The notes beneath the pieces are model-generated. The model was not told the DNA's origin. It did no database searches and saw only the letters and a program-made list of their open reading frames with translations. From positions 1-15,381 of the forward strand of contig JAUVIT010000003.1 in assembly GCA_030592605.1 (NCBI GenBank): 15,381 nucleotides of DNA. Reading direction: 5' to 3'. The position numbers and the translations under genes are program-made. This stretch comes from Bacteroidota bacterium (GTDB lineage: Bacteria > Bacteroidota > Bacteroidia > Bacteroidales > GCA-2748055). Positions 7,578 to 13,782 of this stretch are shown here, piece after piece. Position 1 is the stretch's first letter. The number at the start of each line of letters is the position of its first letter.

Positions 7578-7593
7578 TGGCGTGGTTATTGCA
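7578..7593 (+). promoter_or_regulatory. Putative sigma-54 (-24/-12) promoter of the SDR gene
   Basis: TGGCGTGGTTATTGCA compares with the sigma-54 consensus TGGCACR-N4-TTGCW. The invariant GG and GC are spaced by 10 bases, TGGC and TTGCA are intact, and two of the bases between them differ. Predicted start is near 7604, giving a leader of about 85 bases before the ATG at 7689. The gap 7433-7688 otherwise holds short inverted repeats after the GH32 stop (7430-7442 and 7444-7459) and no RNA gene that I could recognise. Confidence 0.5.
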
Positions 7594-7688
7594 TCTTATA
7601 GTAACAGATCAGGTGTTGTAGCAAAATCTAAATGAAAAATTAACAGGATCGACGCATCCTATTTAGAAATAAGTTGTCTTTTTATTAT

Positions 7689-8488: not shown

Positions 8489-10873
8489 TCATTCATACCT
8501 GAGCGACATGCTGGGATTTTGACGGCTCGCCCTCACCGCATGAAAACTTACCGTTGCCATGGCAATCAGAAAGGCCAGAATTCCTGCCACAAAAAAGATC
8601 CATATGGGAATCTCCACCCTGTAGGCAAAGGTCTCCAACCATTTTTTCATGGCGAACCAGGTCAGAGGCCAGGCAATGATATTGGCCAGAAACACCCATT
8701 TAGTAAAATCGAGGGAAAGCAGCCTCAGAATATTCGAAGTGGTGGCCCCGTTGGTTTTCCGGATCCCTATTTCCTTGGTTTTTCGTTCGGCCATAAAAGA
8801 AGCCAGACCAAATAGACCAAGACAGGAGATTAGAATGGCGATAACCGAAAAAATGGTGAGCAAGGCGCGAGTCTGTTTTTCATTCTTATAGATACCATCA
8901 TAATGCTTATCCAGGATTTCGTACTCAAAGGGTATTTCAGGTACATATTTCTCCCAATCCTTCTGCAGGATCTTAATTATCTTCTGATAGTCGGAACCCG
9001 CTATCCTTACACTGAGATAATATGGATTCCTGAACCTTTCAGCCAATAGCATCAATGCGTGTGGCCTGACCTCCATATGCTTGGATTCCCAGTGGTAATC
9101 CTTTACTACTCCAATTACCTCGTATGGCAGGGTCCGATCGTTCCACAAATAGGTAATCTTTCCGATAGGATCGTCCATCTCCAGCAGATTGACTGCGGTT
9201 TCGTTAAGCACGATCTTTCCTGTATCGGCTTTAAATTCCTTTGAGAAGTATCTGCCACTGACCATTTCCATGCCCATGGTTTCCACATAGCTTTCGTCGG
9301 TGAGGTTAGCATTGAGACTAAAGCTTTTTTCCATGCCTTCGGCTCCAAAACCCCAGTTAGTTATTTTATCACCAGGAACCCATGCGGAAGAAGAAACCTG
9401 GATCACTTCGGGCAGGGTCCGCAACTCATCCTTATAGGCTTCTAGATTCTCCAAATAGGCAATATTTTCTAACAGGACTACCTGCTCCTTATTGAATCCC
9501 AGAGAATTCTCCATGATCAGGTTCATCTGCTTCTGCACTAGTATTGTAGCTGCAATCAGAAATATGGCCACAGAAAACTGGAATAAAACCAGGATATTAC
9601 GGAACCAACTTTTGGACTGCTTTACACCTTTAAAACCCAGGGAATCGATGGCTGAAAAGTTGCTCATATACAGTGCAGGATAGATCCCTGACAACAATCC
9701 AACTATTATTGAAAGCGCCAGTAATCCAGGGATTACCAGGAAATTATCCAGGTAGTGAATCTCAATCTCTCCACCTGTGAAATTCCTGTATGGCCCCATG
9801 ATCGATTCCACCAGTCCCATGGCCAGGATCAGGGCCAGAATACTGATGATAATCGCTTCACTAAAGAATTGATGCCGAAGCTTTTTCCGACTGGCTCCGT
9901 TTGTCTTTCTTACGCCTACCTCCCTGGCCCTGATGGAGGAGCTGGCGGTGGTCAGATTCATAAAATTGATACAGGCTACAAGCAGTAAAAGGAAGGCGAC
10001 AATGGAAAATATCCTGACGTAGGCAATGTTGCCATTTGGCTCAAACTCCCCATTCAGATCAGATCCCAGGTGGATCTCCTTGATATGTTGCAGATAGAGG
10101 ATCCAGAAATTATCATCATCGGAACGCTCCTCATAAGATCCCTCAAAAAGGTACTTGTCCACAAAAGCGGGTAGTTTGGCTTCCAGTTGTTCTTCCGGGA
10201 ATCCGGGTTCCAGCCTCATATAGGTTTCAAAGTTATTGGCAAACCAGTTCTGATTGTTATACAAGCCATCTATTGACACCAAAGAGATAAGCATGCTAAA
10301 ATGAAAATGTGATTGCGCTGGAAAATCCTCAAAGACTCCCATTACTGTTAATGGAATAGTATCGTAAACCATAATCACCTTTCCGTAGGCTGTTTCATCT
10401 CCGAAATACTTACGGGAAGTAGTCCGGTCAAGCAACACCTGCCCGGGCTCATTAAGTACTTTTCCCGGTGAACCCTCCAGATAATTCAAGGTGAAAACCT
10501 CAGTAAAGGTTGAGTCCACCGCAGCGGCCAAATCCTCGTTATACACCAGATCCCCCAGGGTGACTTTCATGGACCGGTCAGCGATCCGGGTTATGGCCAT
10601 GATCTCAGGATACTCATCGTACATAGCAAGGGGCATTCGAGCCGGGGTCCAGGTCTGACGAATCACTGTGTTCCCGATCTTGGCATCGACTGCCACCCGG
10701 TATATATCATCATAATGCTCATTGTACTTGTCGTAGTTGAGCTCATGGTTTACATATAGCATAATCAACACAAAACTGGCTATACCAATGGCCAGTCCTG
10801 CAATATTCAATATGGAGATCAGAAGGTGCTTCCTGATATGACGAAAAGTAAGCTTGAAGTAGTGTTCTACCAT
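8489..10873 (-). CDS. Two-module MacB/FtsX-type ABC transporter permease
   Basis: 794 residues from the ATG at 10873-10871. This start gives the family N-terminus (MVEHYFKLTFRHIRKH), and a sigma-54 promoter overlaps the ATG at 10912, which would add only 13 residues. TM1 is about 18-41, followed by a MacB-type periplasmic core domain. Three helices follow (about 287-308, 339-358, 378-402). TM5 is about 424-446, then comes a second periplasmic domain and a second three-helix FtsX module (about 670-693, 722-741, 756-778). The cytoplasmic motif that contacts the ATPase occurs twice, EVGVRKTNGA (318-327) and EIGIRKTNGA (701-710), so the protein is a fused double permease. Relatives use ATP-driven conformational change to move antimicrobials, lipids or lipoproteins or to signal. 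No ATPase or HlyD-type gene is in the window. It is encoded divergently from a two-component operon that probably controls it. Confidence 0.92.
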   Translation of the reverse strand: MVEHYFKLTFRHIRKHLLISILNIAGLAIGIASFVLIMLYVNHELNYDKYNEHYDDIYRVAVDAKIGNTVIRQTWTPARMPLAMYDEYPEIMAITRIADRSMKVTLGDLVYNEDLAAAVDSTFTEVFTLNYLEGSPGKVLNEPGQVLLDRTTSRKYFGDETAYGKVIMVYDTIPLTVMGVFEDFPAQSHFHFSMLISLVSIDGLYNNQNWFANNFETYMRLEPGFPEEQLEAKLPAFVDKYLFEGSYEERSDDDNFWILYLQHIKEIHLGSDLNGEFEPNGNIAYVRIFSIVAFLLLLVACINFMNLTTASSSIRAREVGVRKTNGASRKKLRHQFFSEAIIISILALILAMGLVESIMGPYRNFTGGEIEIHYLDNFLVIPGLLALSIIVGLLSGIYPALYMSNFSAIDSLGFKGVKQSKSWFRNILVLFQFSVAIFLIAATILVQKQMNLIMENSLGFNKEQVVLLENIAYLENLEAYKDELRTLPEVIQVSSSAWVPGDKITNWGFGAEGMEKSFSLNANLTDESYVETMGMEMVSGRYFSKEFKADTGKIVLNETAVNLLEMDDPIGKITYLWNDRTLPYEVIGVVKDYHWESKHMEVRPHALMLLAERFRNPYYLSVRIAGSDYQKIIKILQKDWEKYVPEIPFEYEILDKHYDGIYKNEKQTRALLTIFSVIAILISCLGLFGLASFMAERKTKEIGIRKTNGATTSNILRLLSLDFTKWVFLANIIAWPLTWFAMKKWLETFAYRVEIPIWIFFVAGILAFLIAMATVSFHAVRASRQNPSMSLRYE

Positions 10874-10895
10874 GGTGCCATTTTTTTCATTCTTT

Positions 10896-10911
10896 TGCAA
10901 GAGCTGTACCA
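10896..10911 (-). promoter_or_regulatory. Putative sigma-54 (-24/-12) promoter of the permease gene
   Basis: Read on the minus strand, TGGTACAGCTCTTGCA matches TGGYACR-N4-TTGCW at every specified base, with GG and GC 10 bases apart. The -12 GC lies at 10898-10897, so transcription should begin near 10885, leaving a leader of about 12 bases before the permease ATG at 10873. The element overlaps the upstream in-frame ATG at 10912 and so also fixes the start codon. A sigma-54 activator of the NtrC class is encoded divergently 156 bases away, at 11067, and is the obvious candidate regulator. Confidence 0.7.
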
Positions 10912-10998
10912 TTCTTTCTATATTGCTCTTTTATTGCTGCTTATGAAGTATCTCCCGTATTGGAAAAATGGAGAAGTGCTCGGTTTTAATGCATCTGT

Positions 10999-11017
10999 CT
11001 GTTCGATTTCGTCACAG
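10999..11017. promoter_or_regulatory. Imperfect dyad between the permease and regulator genes, possible activator site
   Basis: CTGTTCGATTTCGTCACAG has matching outer arms CTGT/ACAG and inner CGA/TCG, with a one-base asymmetry. It lies about 115-130 bases upstream of the predicted permease start, in the normal range for NtrC-type enhancer sites, and directly abuts the TTTG element of the regulator's own promoter. A second weak dyad, TTAGTAGTATTTCTAA (11046-11061), overlaps that promoter's -7 region. Function is inferred from placement. Confidence 0.25.
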
Positions 11018-11049
11018 TTTGTAAGGCTTGCCGTAAATCCATACATTAG
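11018..11049 (+). promoter_or_regulatory. Bacteroidota primary-sigma promoter of the two-component operon
   Basis: TTTG at 11018-11021 and TACATTAG at 11042-11049 are 20 bases apart and match the phylum's TTTG / TAnnTTTG promoter with one mismatch. Transcription would start near 11055, about 12 bases before the ATG at 11067. No sigma-54 element was found for this operon, so it is probably expressed by the housekeeping sigma factor. Confidence 0.45.
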
Positions 11050-11066: not shown

Positions 11067-12428
11067 ATGGCACAGCCAAAAATATTGATCATTGATGACG
11101 ATCATGATGTGCTTTTGACAGCACGAATGTTTCTTGAGCAATTTGAATTTGATGTTACCGTCCTATCTGATCCGGAGAAAAGTATTGTTCAGATCAAGAA
11201 AGAGCACTATGATGTGATCTTGCTGGATATGAATTTCCAGCGTGGGAAGACTGAAGGGACCGAAGGGATCCGATGGCTGGAGATCATCAGGGAGCATGAT
11301 CCGCAAACCGTGGTTATTCTGATGACCGCCTTTGGGGATGTGGAACTGGCTGTAAAGGGGATCAGGGCAGGCGCCTTTGATTTTATCCTGAAACCCTGGC
11401 AAAATGCCAAACTTCATGCATCCATTCTGTCTGCACTGAAACTGCAACACACAAACCAGGAGAAGGAGAAATACCGGAATATGGCCCTTACCCTGGGAGA
11501 AGATGTTGATCTGCCCTTTATGCAAATCCTGGGTACATCGGATGTTATTGAAAAGTTAAAAGAGAACATCCGGATCATTGCTCCCACCGATGCCTCTGTC
11601 CTTATACTAGGTGAAAATGGTACTGGTAAGGAGATGGTAGCCCGGTCCATCCACAGGCTCTCGGACCGCAAACAGGGTATATTTATGGGAGTGGATATGG
11701 GAGCCATCCCTGAAACCCTGTTTGAATCAGAACTATTTGGACATCAGAAGGGATCATTTACAGGCGCCATCCAGGACAAGCCTGGGAGGTTCGAGCTGGC
11801 AGAAAATGGGAGCCTGTTCTTAGATGAAATAGGCAACCTGCCGGTGACCATGCAAACAAAATTACTCACTGTACTTGAGCAAAGAAACATCAGGAGAATA
11901 GGTGCTGGTACAGGTGTTCCCATTGATATTCGTTTGATTTCTGCCACCAATCAACCCATTCATAAAATGGTGGAAGAGGGCTCCTTCAGGCGTGATTTAC
12001 TCTATCGGTTGAATACCATTGAGCTGATGATCCCACCACTCAGAGACAGGGTAGATGATATCCCCTTGCTTGCAGAACATTTTTTAAGTGAAGCTTGCCG
12101 GAAATATGGAAAACCGGGACTTGAGATTGGCAAAAGGAGCCTGAAGCAACTACAACAATACCACTGGCCCGGAAATGTACGAGAGCTTCAGAACACCATG
12201 GTAAGAGCAGTCATCATGGGTGAGGATAAGCAGGTCCGGTTTGACCAGTTGGGTGCCACAGGTGTAGGAGGAACTGCTTCAATTACCCTGAACATTAAGG
12301 AGAATGAGAAATCATTGATCCAAAAGGCACTTCTCACAAACAGGGGAAATGTAACCAGGGCCGCGGCCGATCTGGGAATAGACAGGAATGCACTTTACAG
12401 GAGAATGAAGAAACATGGTATTCAATAA
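11067..12428 (+). CDS. NtrC-family sigma-54-dependent response regulator
   Basis: 453 residues in three domains. The receiver (about 5-120) has the acidic pocket D10-D12, phospho-acceptor D54 (ILLDMNF), T87 and K109 (LKPW). A stretch FQRGKTEGTEG (57-67) extends the loop after D54. The AAA+ domain (about 152-385) has Walker A GENGTGKE (182-189), the sigma-54-contacting loop GSFTGA (229-234, Ser in place of the usual Ala), Walker B SLFLDE (249-254), ISATNQ as sensor I, the arginine-finger region FRRDLLYRLN and sensor II WPGNVRELQN. A Fis-type helix-turn-helix (about 412-453) includes GNVTRAAADLGIDRNALYRRM. All residues needed to activate sigma-54 RNA polymerase are present. The downstream kinase gene overlaps it by 14 bases. 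Probable targets are the sigma-54-like promoters at 10896-10911 and 7578-7593. Confidence 0.95.
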   Translation: MAQPKILIIDDDHDVLLTARMFLEQFEFDVTVLSDPEKSIVQIKKEHYDVILLDMNFQRGKTEGTEGIRWLEIIREHDPQTVVILMTAFGDVELAVKGIRAGAFDFILKPWQNAKLHASILSALKLQHTNQEKEKYRNMALTLGEDVDLPFMQILGTSDVIEKLKENIRIIAPTDASVLILGENGTGKEMVARSIHRLSDRKQGIFMGVDMGAIPETLFESELFGHQKGSFTGAIQDKPGRFELAENGSLFLDEIGNLPVTMQTKLLTVLEQRNIRRIGAGTGVPIDIRLISATNQPIHKMVEEGSFRRDLLYRLNTIELMIPPLRDRVDDIPLLAEHFLSEACRKYGKPGLEIGKRSLKQLQQYHWPGNVRELQNTMVRAVIMGEDKQVRFDQLGATGVGGTASITLNIKENEKSLIQKALLTNRGNVTRAAADLGIDRNALYRRMKKHGIQ

Positions 12429-13782
12429 GTACATGCTCCGGATCTCGATCCGGCTTATCCTGATTTTTATAGCCATGCTTGCCCTAGCCCTGGTCATTGG
12501 TGAGCAAGCCAGGCTATTTTCTGTGCTGGGCGTATCGCTGGTTCTCCTGTTTTTAATCGCGGAATTGTTCAGGTCCATCGCCCGAACCAATCAAATCGTT
12601 GAATCCCTCCTTGAATCCATCAGATATGGTGACTTCAATAAAACCATAAGGGATAAAGCAGCAGGCCTCGGCTTCGAGGGGCTTGCAGATTCCGCACAGC
12701 AAATTATCCGGGCCATTGCCTCGGCCAGGATCGAGAAGGAGACTCAGTACCAGTATATGCAAACCATCCTTGAGCACATACATACTGCTGTCCTGAGCCT
12801 GGATGAACAACATGAACCGGAAATGATCAATCCGCTTGCCCTGAACACCCTGGGTCTGTATAATACACGCAAACCATCCTGGGCAGAGATAGAAAAGAAG
12901 GCCCCTCTTTTCACAGATGCAGTGAAGTCCATGGGCGAGTCGGGCAGGGAAATGATCCGGCTCAGCAATACTCCCACAGGAAAACAACTGCTGGTCCTTG
13001 TGAATACAATGAAAATAGGGGGAAAGCCGGTAAAGATTATCACCTTCCAGGATATAGAGCCTGAGATTGAACAAAAGGAGATGGAGTCCTGGCAAATAAT
13101 CAGCCGGATTATGGCCCATGAAATCATGAACAGCCTGACACCACTTTCCTCCCTTACCGAGACAGGCATTATGCTGCTAGAACATGAAGGCAAGCCCAAA
13201 GATATTTCAGCGATTCCACAAAAGACCATCGATAACCTGTATACAGCCTTACGTACTATTTCCAGCAGAAACCAGGCATTAGCAGCGTTTATAGGGAGCT
13301 ATCGTCAGTTGTCAAGATTGCCCTTGCCAGAAAAAAGGGAAGTGCATGTGGTCGAGTTACTGGAGGAGCTCCGGGAGCTGTATGAGATTCCTTGTAAGGA
13401 AAAGGGGATTGCCTGCTCCTTCAATCATGGACCGGAGAACCTGAGAATCACGGCGGATGATGCACAATTAAAGCAGGTATTGATCAACCTCATAAAGAAT
13501 GCAACCGAAGCTATGGACAAGGTTCAGAATCCCGTGATCGGAATTTCAGTGAAAAGGATTCTCCACCGGGTTTCCATTGAAATCTACAACACCGGACCCG
13601 CCATCCCACCCGAAGTAATGGAAAAGATTTTTGTGCCTTTCTACTCTACAAAACCAGAGGGATCCGGAATTGGCTTAAGTCTCTCCCGTCAGATCGTAAG
13701 CAATCACGGGGGACAGATTGGGGTGGAATCTCTGGAAGGAAAAGGAACCACCTTTAAGGTCATACTTCCAGTGTTTGATTAA
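12415..13782 (+). CDS. NtrB/NtrY-like sensor histidine kinase with intramembrane sensor
   Basis: 455 residues. Two adjacent membrane helices (about 10-29 and 35-52) are joined by roughly six residues, so there is no extracytoplasmic sensing domain. A HAMP-like or linker region (53-105) and a PAS-like segment (about 110-220) follow. The HisKA domain has the phospho-acceptor H235 in MAHEIMNSLTPL, then the ATPase domain with N box INLIKNATEAM (N362), F box IFVPFYSTK and G2 box GSGIGLSLSRQI (417-428). The G1 box reads YNTGPAIP (391-398), with Asn and Ala where DxGxGI is usual, which may weaken nucleotide binding, although the other boxes are intact. Its start overlaps the end of the response-regulator gene by 14 bases, so the two are translationally coupled and form a cognate pair. 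The architecture suits sensing of a membrane event or a membrane partner such as the divergent permease. Confidence 0.93.
   Translation: MVFNKYMLRISIRLILIFIAMLALALVIGEQARLFSVLGVSLVLLFLIAELFRSIARTNQIVESLLESIRYGDFNKTIRDKAAGLGFEGLADSAQQIIRAIASARIEKETQYQYMQTILEHIHTAVLSLDEQHEPEMINPLALNTLGLYNTRKPSWAEIEKKAPLFTDAVKSMGESGREMIRLSNTPTGKQLLVLVNTMKIGGKPVKIITFQDIEPEIEQKEMESWQIISRIMAHEIMNSLTPLSSLTETGIMLLEHEGKPKDISAIPQKTIDNLYTALRTISSRNQALAAFIGSYRQLSRLPLPEKREVHVVELLEELRELYEIPCKEKGIACSFNHGPENLRITADDAQLKQVLINLIKNATEAMDKVQNPVIGISVKRILHRVSIEIYNTGPAIPPEVMEKIFVPFYSTKPEGSGIGLSLSRQIVSNHGGQIGVESLEGKGTTFKVILPVFD

Follow-up and report, generated by a model that had tools for sequence, protein, structure and literature searches.

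In a 15,381-nt stretch of DNA from a Bacteroidota bacterium (the window), an FtsX/MacB-type permease gene and an NtrC-family regulator gene point away from each other across a gap of 193 bp, and minus-strand positions 10896-10911 within that gap read TGGTACAGCTCTTGCA. The original prediction was that this 16-mer is a sigma-54 promoter for the permease and that the divergent regulator is its dedicated activator. The question is thus whether the promoter is genuine, and whether its control is private to the locus. The features that bear on the answer are as follows.

8489..10873, minus strand: FtsX/MacB-type ABC permease gene (794 aa), corrected start; Pfam MacB_PCD and FtsX, conserved ATG
10874..10885, minus strand: predicted A-rich leader, 12 nt; 23-24 bases from the -12 C to the ATG in 8/8 orthologs
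10885..10885, minus strand: predicted transcription start (+1), placed 12 bases 3' of the C in the -12 GC
10896..10911, minus strand: sigma-54 promoter core, TGGTACA-GCTC-TTGCA (-24/-12); exact consensus match and ortholog conservation
10977..10993, minus strand: predicted proximal enhancer site TGCATTAAAACCGAGCA (TGC-N11-GCA), centre at about -100; ortholog alignment
11000..11016, minus strand: predicted distal enhancer site TGTGACGAAATCGAACA, centre at about -123; 23 bp from the proximal site
11018..11049, plus strand: housekeeping (sigma-ABfr type) promoter of the regulator, TTTG at 11018-11021, 20 bases, TACATTAG at 11042-11049; consensus fit
11067..12428, plus strand: NtrC-family response regulator (receiver, AAA+ with GSFTGA loop, Fis-type HTH); Pfam and motifs
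12415..13782, plus strand: membrane histidine kinase; HATPase_c, 14-base overlap with the regulator

The sigma-54 promoter core

The 16-mer has no mismatch to TGGYACRNNNNTTGCW (TGGYACR-N4-TTGCW), as had been claimed, and it carries GG at -24 and GC at -12 with ten bases between them, as expected of a sigma-54 promoter; it is the sole exact match within the whole window. Seven matches with at most two mismatches occur in the window, where shuffles average 5.66; because the other six all have two mismatches, only the exact match is informative. The draft genome to which the window belongs (2,138,524 bases, 65% complete) contains two exact matches (the reversed-pattern control gives one), and the second of them (on contig C320) sits within an open reading frame; at the genome density, about 9e-5 exact matches would be expected on one strand of the gap. 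The prediction had also been made to depend on the presence of rpoN, and this gene was found in the same draft (G000:C87, 175.6 bits), its product including ARRTVAKYRE, which we take to be the RpoN box. No sigma-70-like site was found on the permease strand of the gap.

Eight full orthologous loci were drawn from the own genome and 17 relatives, all of one genus: the own locus and seven in which the permease is 72-97% identical. Two partial orthologs (G005 and G011) end inside the permease at a contig end and were left out of the conservation counts. Conservation of GG-N10-GC across these gaps had been proposed as a check, and the alignment retains it in 7/8, G017 having TTGG rather than TTGC at -12, and TGGYAY in 8/8. 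Mean pairwise identity is 0.80 over the -24/-12 stretch and 0.47 over the remaining gap, and the best of 74 other 16-column stretches reaches 0.605. The housekeeping -7 element is absent from the permease strand in seven of the eight gaps, the exception being G012, with one TAnnTTCG 22 bases before the ATG. At the level of sequence, the predicted sigma-54 promoter at 10896-10911 is thereby confirmed as real and conserved.

A second GG-N10-GC site, TGGCGTGGTTATTGCA, lies on the plus strand at 7578-7593, upstream of an SDR gene at 7674. The TTTGGC...TTG block upstream of that gene is kept in nine of ten orthologous upstreams, and five of the nine read TTGTG, not TTGC; this may be a further sigma-54 promoter or an element of some other kind.

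The permease gene, its start and its leader

The permease scores above the gathering score for both MacB_PCD (115.4 bits) and FtsX (95.4 bits), two domains that MacB permeases have likewise; no ABC ATPase was found among the six window proteins scanned with Pfam. It is similar over almost its full length to the NCBIfam models for ADOP (TIGR03434, 268.3 bits against a curated cut-off of 622.3) and DarB (NF038008, 113.8 bits against 700), and it falls below the curated cut-offs of ADOP, DarB and MacB alike. The own draft has at least 30 MacB_PCD matches on at least 23 contigs, a large permease family.

The longer open reading frame starting at 10912 had been suspected of being wrong, and the orthologs agree. 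The codons from 10912 to 10873 show no conservation among them, G007 has an in-frame stop between the equivalents of these two positions, and G013 and G007 have one additional base between the sigma-54 site and the ATG; the start is thus not at 10912. The ATG at 10873 is common to all eight orthologs, and the distance to it from the C of the -12 element, as tabulated above, hardly varies. The transcript is predicted from this geometry to start at 10885, with a 12-nt leader. In Bacteroides thetaiotaomicron the commonest leader is 23 nt and ~3.7% of leaders are under 10 nt (PMC7366714), so that a leader of 12 nt would be short yet not odd.

The regulator, the kinase and the regulator promoter

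The regulator has the Pfam domains of an NtrC-type activator (receiver, Sigma54_activat and Fis HTH), and both the receiver Asp motif and a GAFTGA-type loop, here GSFTGA, are present; GSFTGA is among the variants listed as retaining activity (PMC4641369). The predicted opposition of activator and permease holds throughout, the regulator being present and divergent in 8/8 orthologs (by protein match in seven, and in G007 by the first codons as aligned). In the kinase, an H-box (AHEIMNSLTP), an N-box and N-terminal hydrophobic segments are present, and the kinase gene follows that of the regulator in 5/5 loci, own included, whose contigs extend far enough.

The housekeeping promoter consensus of Bacteroidota is TTTG/TAnnTTTG (PMC7366714, PMC6847099), and upstream of the regulator ATG at 11067, TACATTAG has one mismatch to TAnnTTTG. 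On the regulator strand, TTTG-N20-TAnnTT[CA]G occurs in 6/8 orthologs and TAnnTT[TCA]G in 8/8, the -7 element being displaced by ~17 bp in G012 and G013. Because the distal enhancer site adjoins the -33 element of this promoter, the regulator probably limits its own gene, that is, autorepression would occur via the distal site.

The predicted enhancer pair

NtrC sites have a TGC-N11-GCA layout. In the gap, two 17-bp sites are spaced 23 bp apart in 8/8 orthologs, 95-97 bp before the -12 element, so the paired upstream dyads expected of an NtrC-type circuit are found in each, with imperfect dyad symmetry. At the proximal site, 12 of the 17 columns are invariant and mean identity is 0.916, compared with 0.466 elsewhere in the gap; at the distal site, eight of 17 are invariant and mean identity is 0.771.

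Across the 18 genus genomes, a pattern for the pair matched once in each of eight, always in the permease-regulator gap, and the control matched nowhere; 200 shuffles of the window also gave no match. Since the pattern was drawn from the same eight gaps, those eight matches arise by construction, and the informative result is the absence of others. The remaining ten genomes have no match, two of them (G005 and G011) having the ortholog broken at a contig end, and no further copy of the pair was found outside the gap in these 18 drafts, which are 58-99% complete. This lack of a second copy supports a one-target circuit. Single sites with one mismatch number 12 in the own genome, own locus included, against five for the control. 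At G006:C50:13425-18203, an orthologous permease is present as a tandem duplicate, with a single enhancer pair, which lies ahead of the first of the two genes.

The proposed circuit and its alternatives

The conserved sigma-54 promoter and the predicted paired sites of the permease are most likely operated by the neighbouring two-component regulator. Sequence and conservation show the promoter, both sites and the spacing between them, as well as the start codon, the order of the genes and the presence of rpoN; phosphorylation of the regulator, its binding to the sites, activation and autorepression are what we infer. The genes of the regulator and kinase would be transcribed at a basal level from the TTTG/TAnnTTTG-like promoter, and on receipt of a signal the kinase would phosphorylate the regulator. 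The phosphorylated regulator would then assemble on the two tandem NtrC-like sites, ~100 and 123 bp ahead of the predicted transcription start, contact E-sigma54 at TGGTAC-N5-TTGCA and open the promoter by ATP hydrolysis; the resulting mRNA, with its 12-nt leader, would be translated from the ATG at 10873. Occupancy of the distal site, next to the -33 element, would probably also hold down expression of the regulator. We hold with high confidence that the gap is a two-way control region of this kind, with a housekeeping-driven regulator and kinase, the phospho-regulator on the pair, activation of E-sigma54 at the permease and probable self-limitation. Weighing the other way are the TTGG of G017, the TAnnTTCG on the permease strand of G012, the five of 26 comparable loci in wider relatives that have no TGGYAY at the expected distance, the low share of related loci that keep GC at -12 (20 of 51 scored promoters), and the origin of all the orthologs in a single genus. 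The dedicated kinase-regulator-permease circuit that had been proposed gains support from the gene order, which is conserved where contigs reach, and from the pair, which within the genus occurs only here.

Two other readings would deny the permease promoter its central place. The 16-mer might be a chance match, the permease being transcribed from a housekeeping promoter, and two-mismatch matches are indeed as frequent as in shuffles; however, the ~9e-5 exact matches expected in the gap, the retention of the 16-mer in orthologs though the surrounding gap is only 47% identical, and the absence from the permease strand, in 7/8, of any housekeeping -7 element leave this reading next to no credence. 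It is also highly improbable that the conserved sites serve mainly as an operator for autoregulation, with the permease promoter secondary. The distal site does adjoin the regulator's -33 element, but it is to the permease that the geometry is fixed: the sites lie 95-97 bp from the -12 element, and the -12 element 23-24 bases from the permease ATG, in 8/8, whereas the regulator's -7 element has shifted by ~17 bp in G012 and G013.

A different challenge accepts the sigma-54 promoter and denies only that the circuit is private, either because another activator also drives the promoter or because the regulator has more targets. The own draft, itself 65% complete, has five further genes in which the sigma-54 activator domain is nearly complete, an AACGAACA core is also used in a paralogous site family (G000:C39), and the one-mismatch single sites exceed their control (12, own locus included, against 5). 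Against this, the tandem pair occurs nowhere else in the 18 genus genomes, the partner genes are divergent at fixed spacing, and other sub-families carry different palindromes; we therefore regard shared control as unlikely, and control of the permease by the neighbouring regulator remains the preferred reading.

Wider relatives

The window regulator was used as a query across 149 genomes, and the upstream DNA of 100 further regulator genes was taken, some of it cut by contig ends. A divergent permease was present in 33 of these upstream stretches; in seven it was at least 600 bases off, behind other sequence, leaving 26 within 600 bases. TGGYAY was found 30-75 bases before the start in 21 of the 26 (reverse-strand control, 2) and was lacking there in the other five; 13 of the 21 have it at 37-39 bases. 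Among 207 other permease starts, six had such a regulator within 1.6 kb, all six with TGGYAY (two of them, L022 and L081, are also counted among the 26). Permeases with no regulator found nearby, as judged on fetched DNA that includes little flank for part of the loci, had TGGYAY at 30-75 bases in 19/201 (reverse-strand control, 8). The link to a sigma-54 promoter thus goes with the adjacent activator; the Fisher value of 2e-14 overstates independence because the loci are related.

A link between FtsX permeases and sigma-54 irrespective of an adjacent activator was considered and rejected, only two of the 207 upstreams scoring 13 or more. The weight matrix was of an approximate shape and served for ranking only, and this scoring omitted permeases whose start lay within 60 bases of the edge of a locus. 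The best non-orthologous regulator loci (L178-L199, 22 loci outside the 26) include only one, L181, with a divergent permease by the window query, and it has TGGCATTCCTCTTGCA. In five loci (L206, L258, L274, L288 and L291), an open frame of ~228-264 aa separates the regulator from the divergent permease, and close to the start of this frame lies a sigma-54-like site; the frame is possibly an ABC ATPase.

Palindromes at comparable positions differ between the aligned sub-families, examples being TGTYGGA-N3-TCCRACA, TGTACGA-N2-TCGTACA and CTGTTCAG-N3-CTGAACAG. The TGTACGA group clearly has a second, weaker copy, which is harder to make out in the others. The enhancer core of the window locus, WWCGARCA, was rejected as a shared code: it occurs in forward orientation in 20 of the 100 regulator-divergent gaps, 10 of them in the aligned C39-like efflux group, and as a 23-bp pair in none of the 100 (three pairs occur at 21 bp), and the other groups have palindromes of their own. 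That group is exemplified by G000:C39 (L085), where a paralogous regulator is divergent from an apparent membrane-fusion protein and TolC-like gene, read by eye, and where TGGCACAAAAAGTGCA and TGTACGA-type palindromes are found. The C39-type layout is common to 12 aligned loci, own included, and the letters at -24/-12 vary among them.

Variants of the activator loop

The loop was read in 60 of the 100 surveyed regulators (L308-L367), 24 with a directly divergent permease and 36 chosen for a candidate site. GAFTDA was found in 55, GSFTDA in three and GAFTSA in one, and one was unreadable; in a set of 46 loci that includes the window family, 31 have a D-type loop. The window family, with GSFTGA or GAFTGA, is thus the exception among the regulators read. 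GAFTGA has been treated as invariant and used as a filter (PMC12316311), which here would drop the 55 GAFTDA and three GSFTDA regulators of the 60. GAFTDA is listed among tolerated variants, one GAFTDA regulator being named with its targets (PMC4641369); whether the G-to-D change breaks contact with sigma-54 was left open by PMC10714721.

Co-variation of the fifth loop residue (G or D) with GC at -12 was considered and is not supported. After seven of the 58 D-type regulators were dropped because TGGYAY was missing or weak, 51 scored promoters remained, of which 20 have GC at -12, 26 have G and another base, and five have neither. G-type loops with GC are confined to one family; outside the window family, a scored site is available for one G-type regulator, L022 (GAYTGA), and it reads TTGAA.

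On balance, and with some reserve, we favor the view that the locus exemplifies a device that recurs in Bacteroidales, in which a single NtrC-type regulator is paired with a single divergent set of export genes, the palindromic enhancers are private, and a -24-dominated sigma-54 promoter stands very near the start codon (for about half of the permeases, TGGYAY lies 37-39 bases ahead of that codon). The regulators would be mostly of the GAFTDA type, many of them opposite sigma-54-like promoters, and GAFTGA-based surveys would miss many such circuits.

Comparison with known systems

NtrC/glnA and, as a divergent example, ZraSR/zraP are NtrC-type enhancer circuits. Such circuits combine a response regulator, tandem TGC-N11-GCA-like sites ~100 bp upstream and a -24/-12 promoter, the target being divergent in zra. 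The window locus shares the regulator type, the tandem-site layout and the promoter class with both, and the divergent target with zra; it differs in that its target is an FtsX/MacB permease, the single one predicted, and in its Bacteroidales host, with a housekeeping promoter type of its own. Switches of this kind are well established, and what is new here is the private layout only. The analysis converts a pattern match into a switch with a defined layout and specified predicted binding sites, open to test.

Among the open-licence PMC papers listed on sigma-54, Bacteroidota, permeases and activators, no other title or abstract opening describes a divergent circuit of this sort. The closest report, from 2025, found sigma-54 promoters enriched at COG0577 FtsX-like permeases in Bacteroidia and called this the first evidence for the family (PMC12316311). 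The pairing of sigma-54 with FtsX-like permeases is the same, but that work is a matrix-scan enrichment and states that activator specificity was not available for every organism, whereas for the window family the activator, the predicted enhancer pair, the spacing and the start codon are laid out; the activator side lacking in PMC12316311 is thus supplied. The comparison across relatives further suggests that a strict GAFTGA rule for recognizing regulators fails in the sampled sub-families, and that Bacteroidales have many one-regulator-one-exporter sigma-54 switches with private enhancers.
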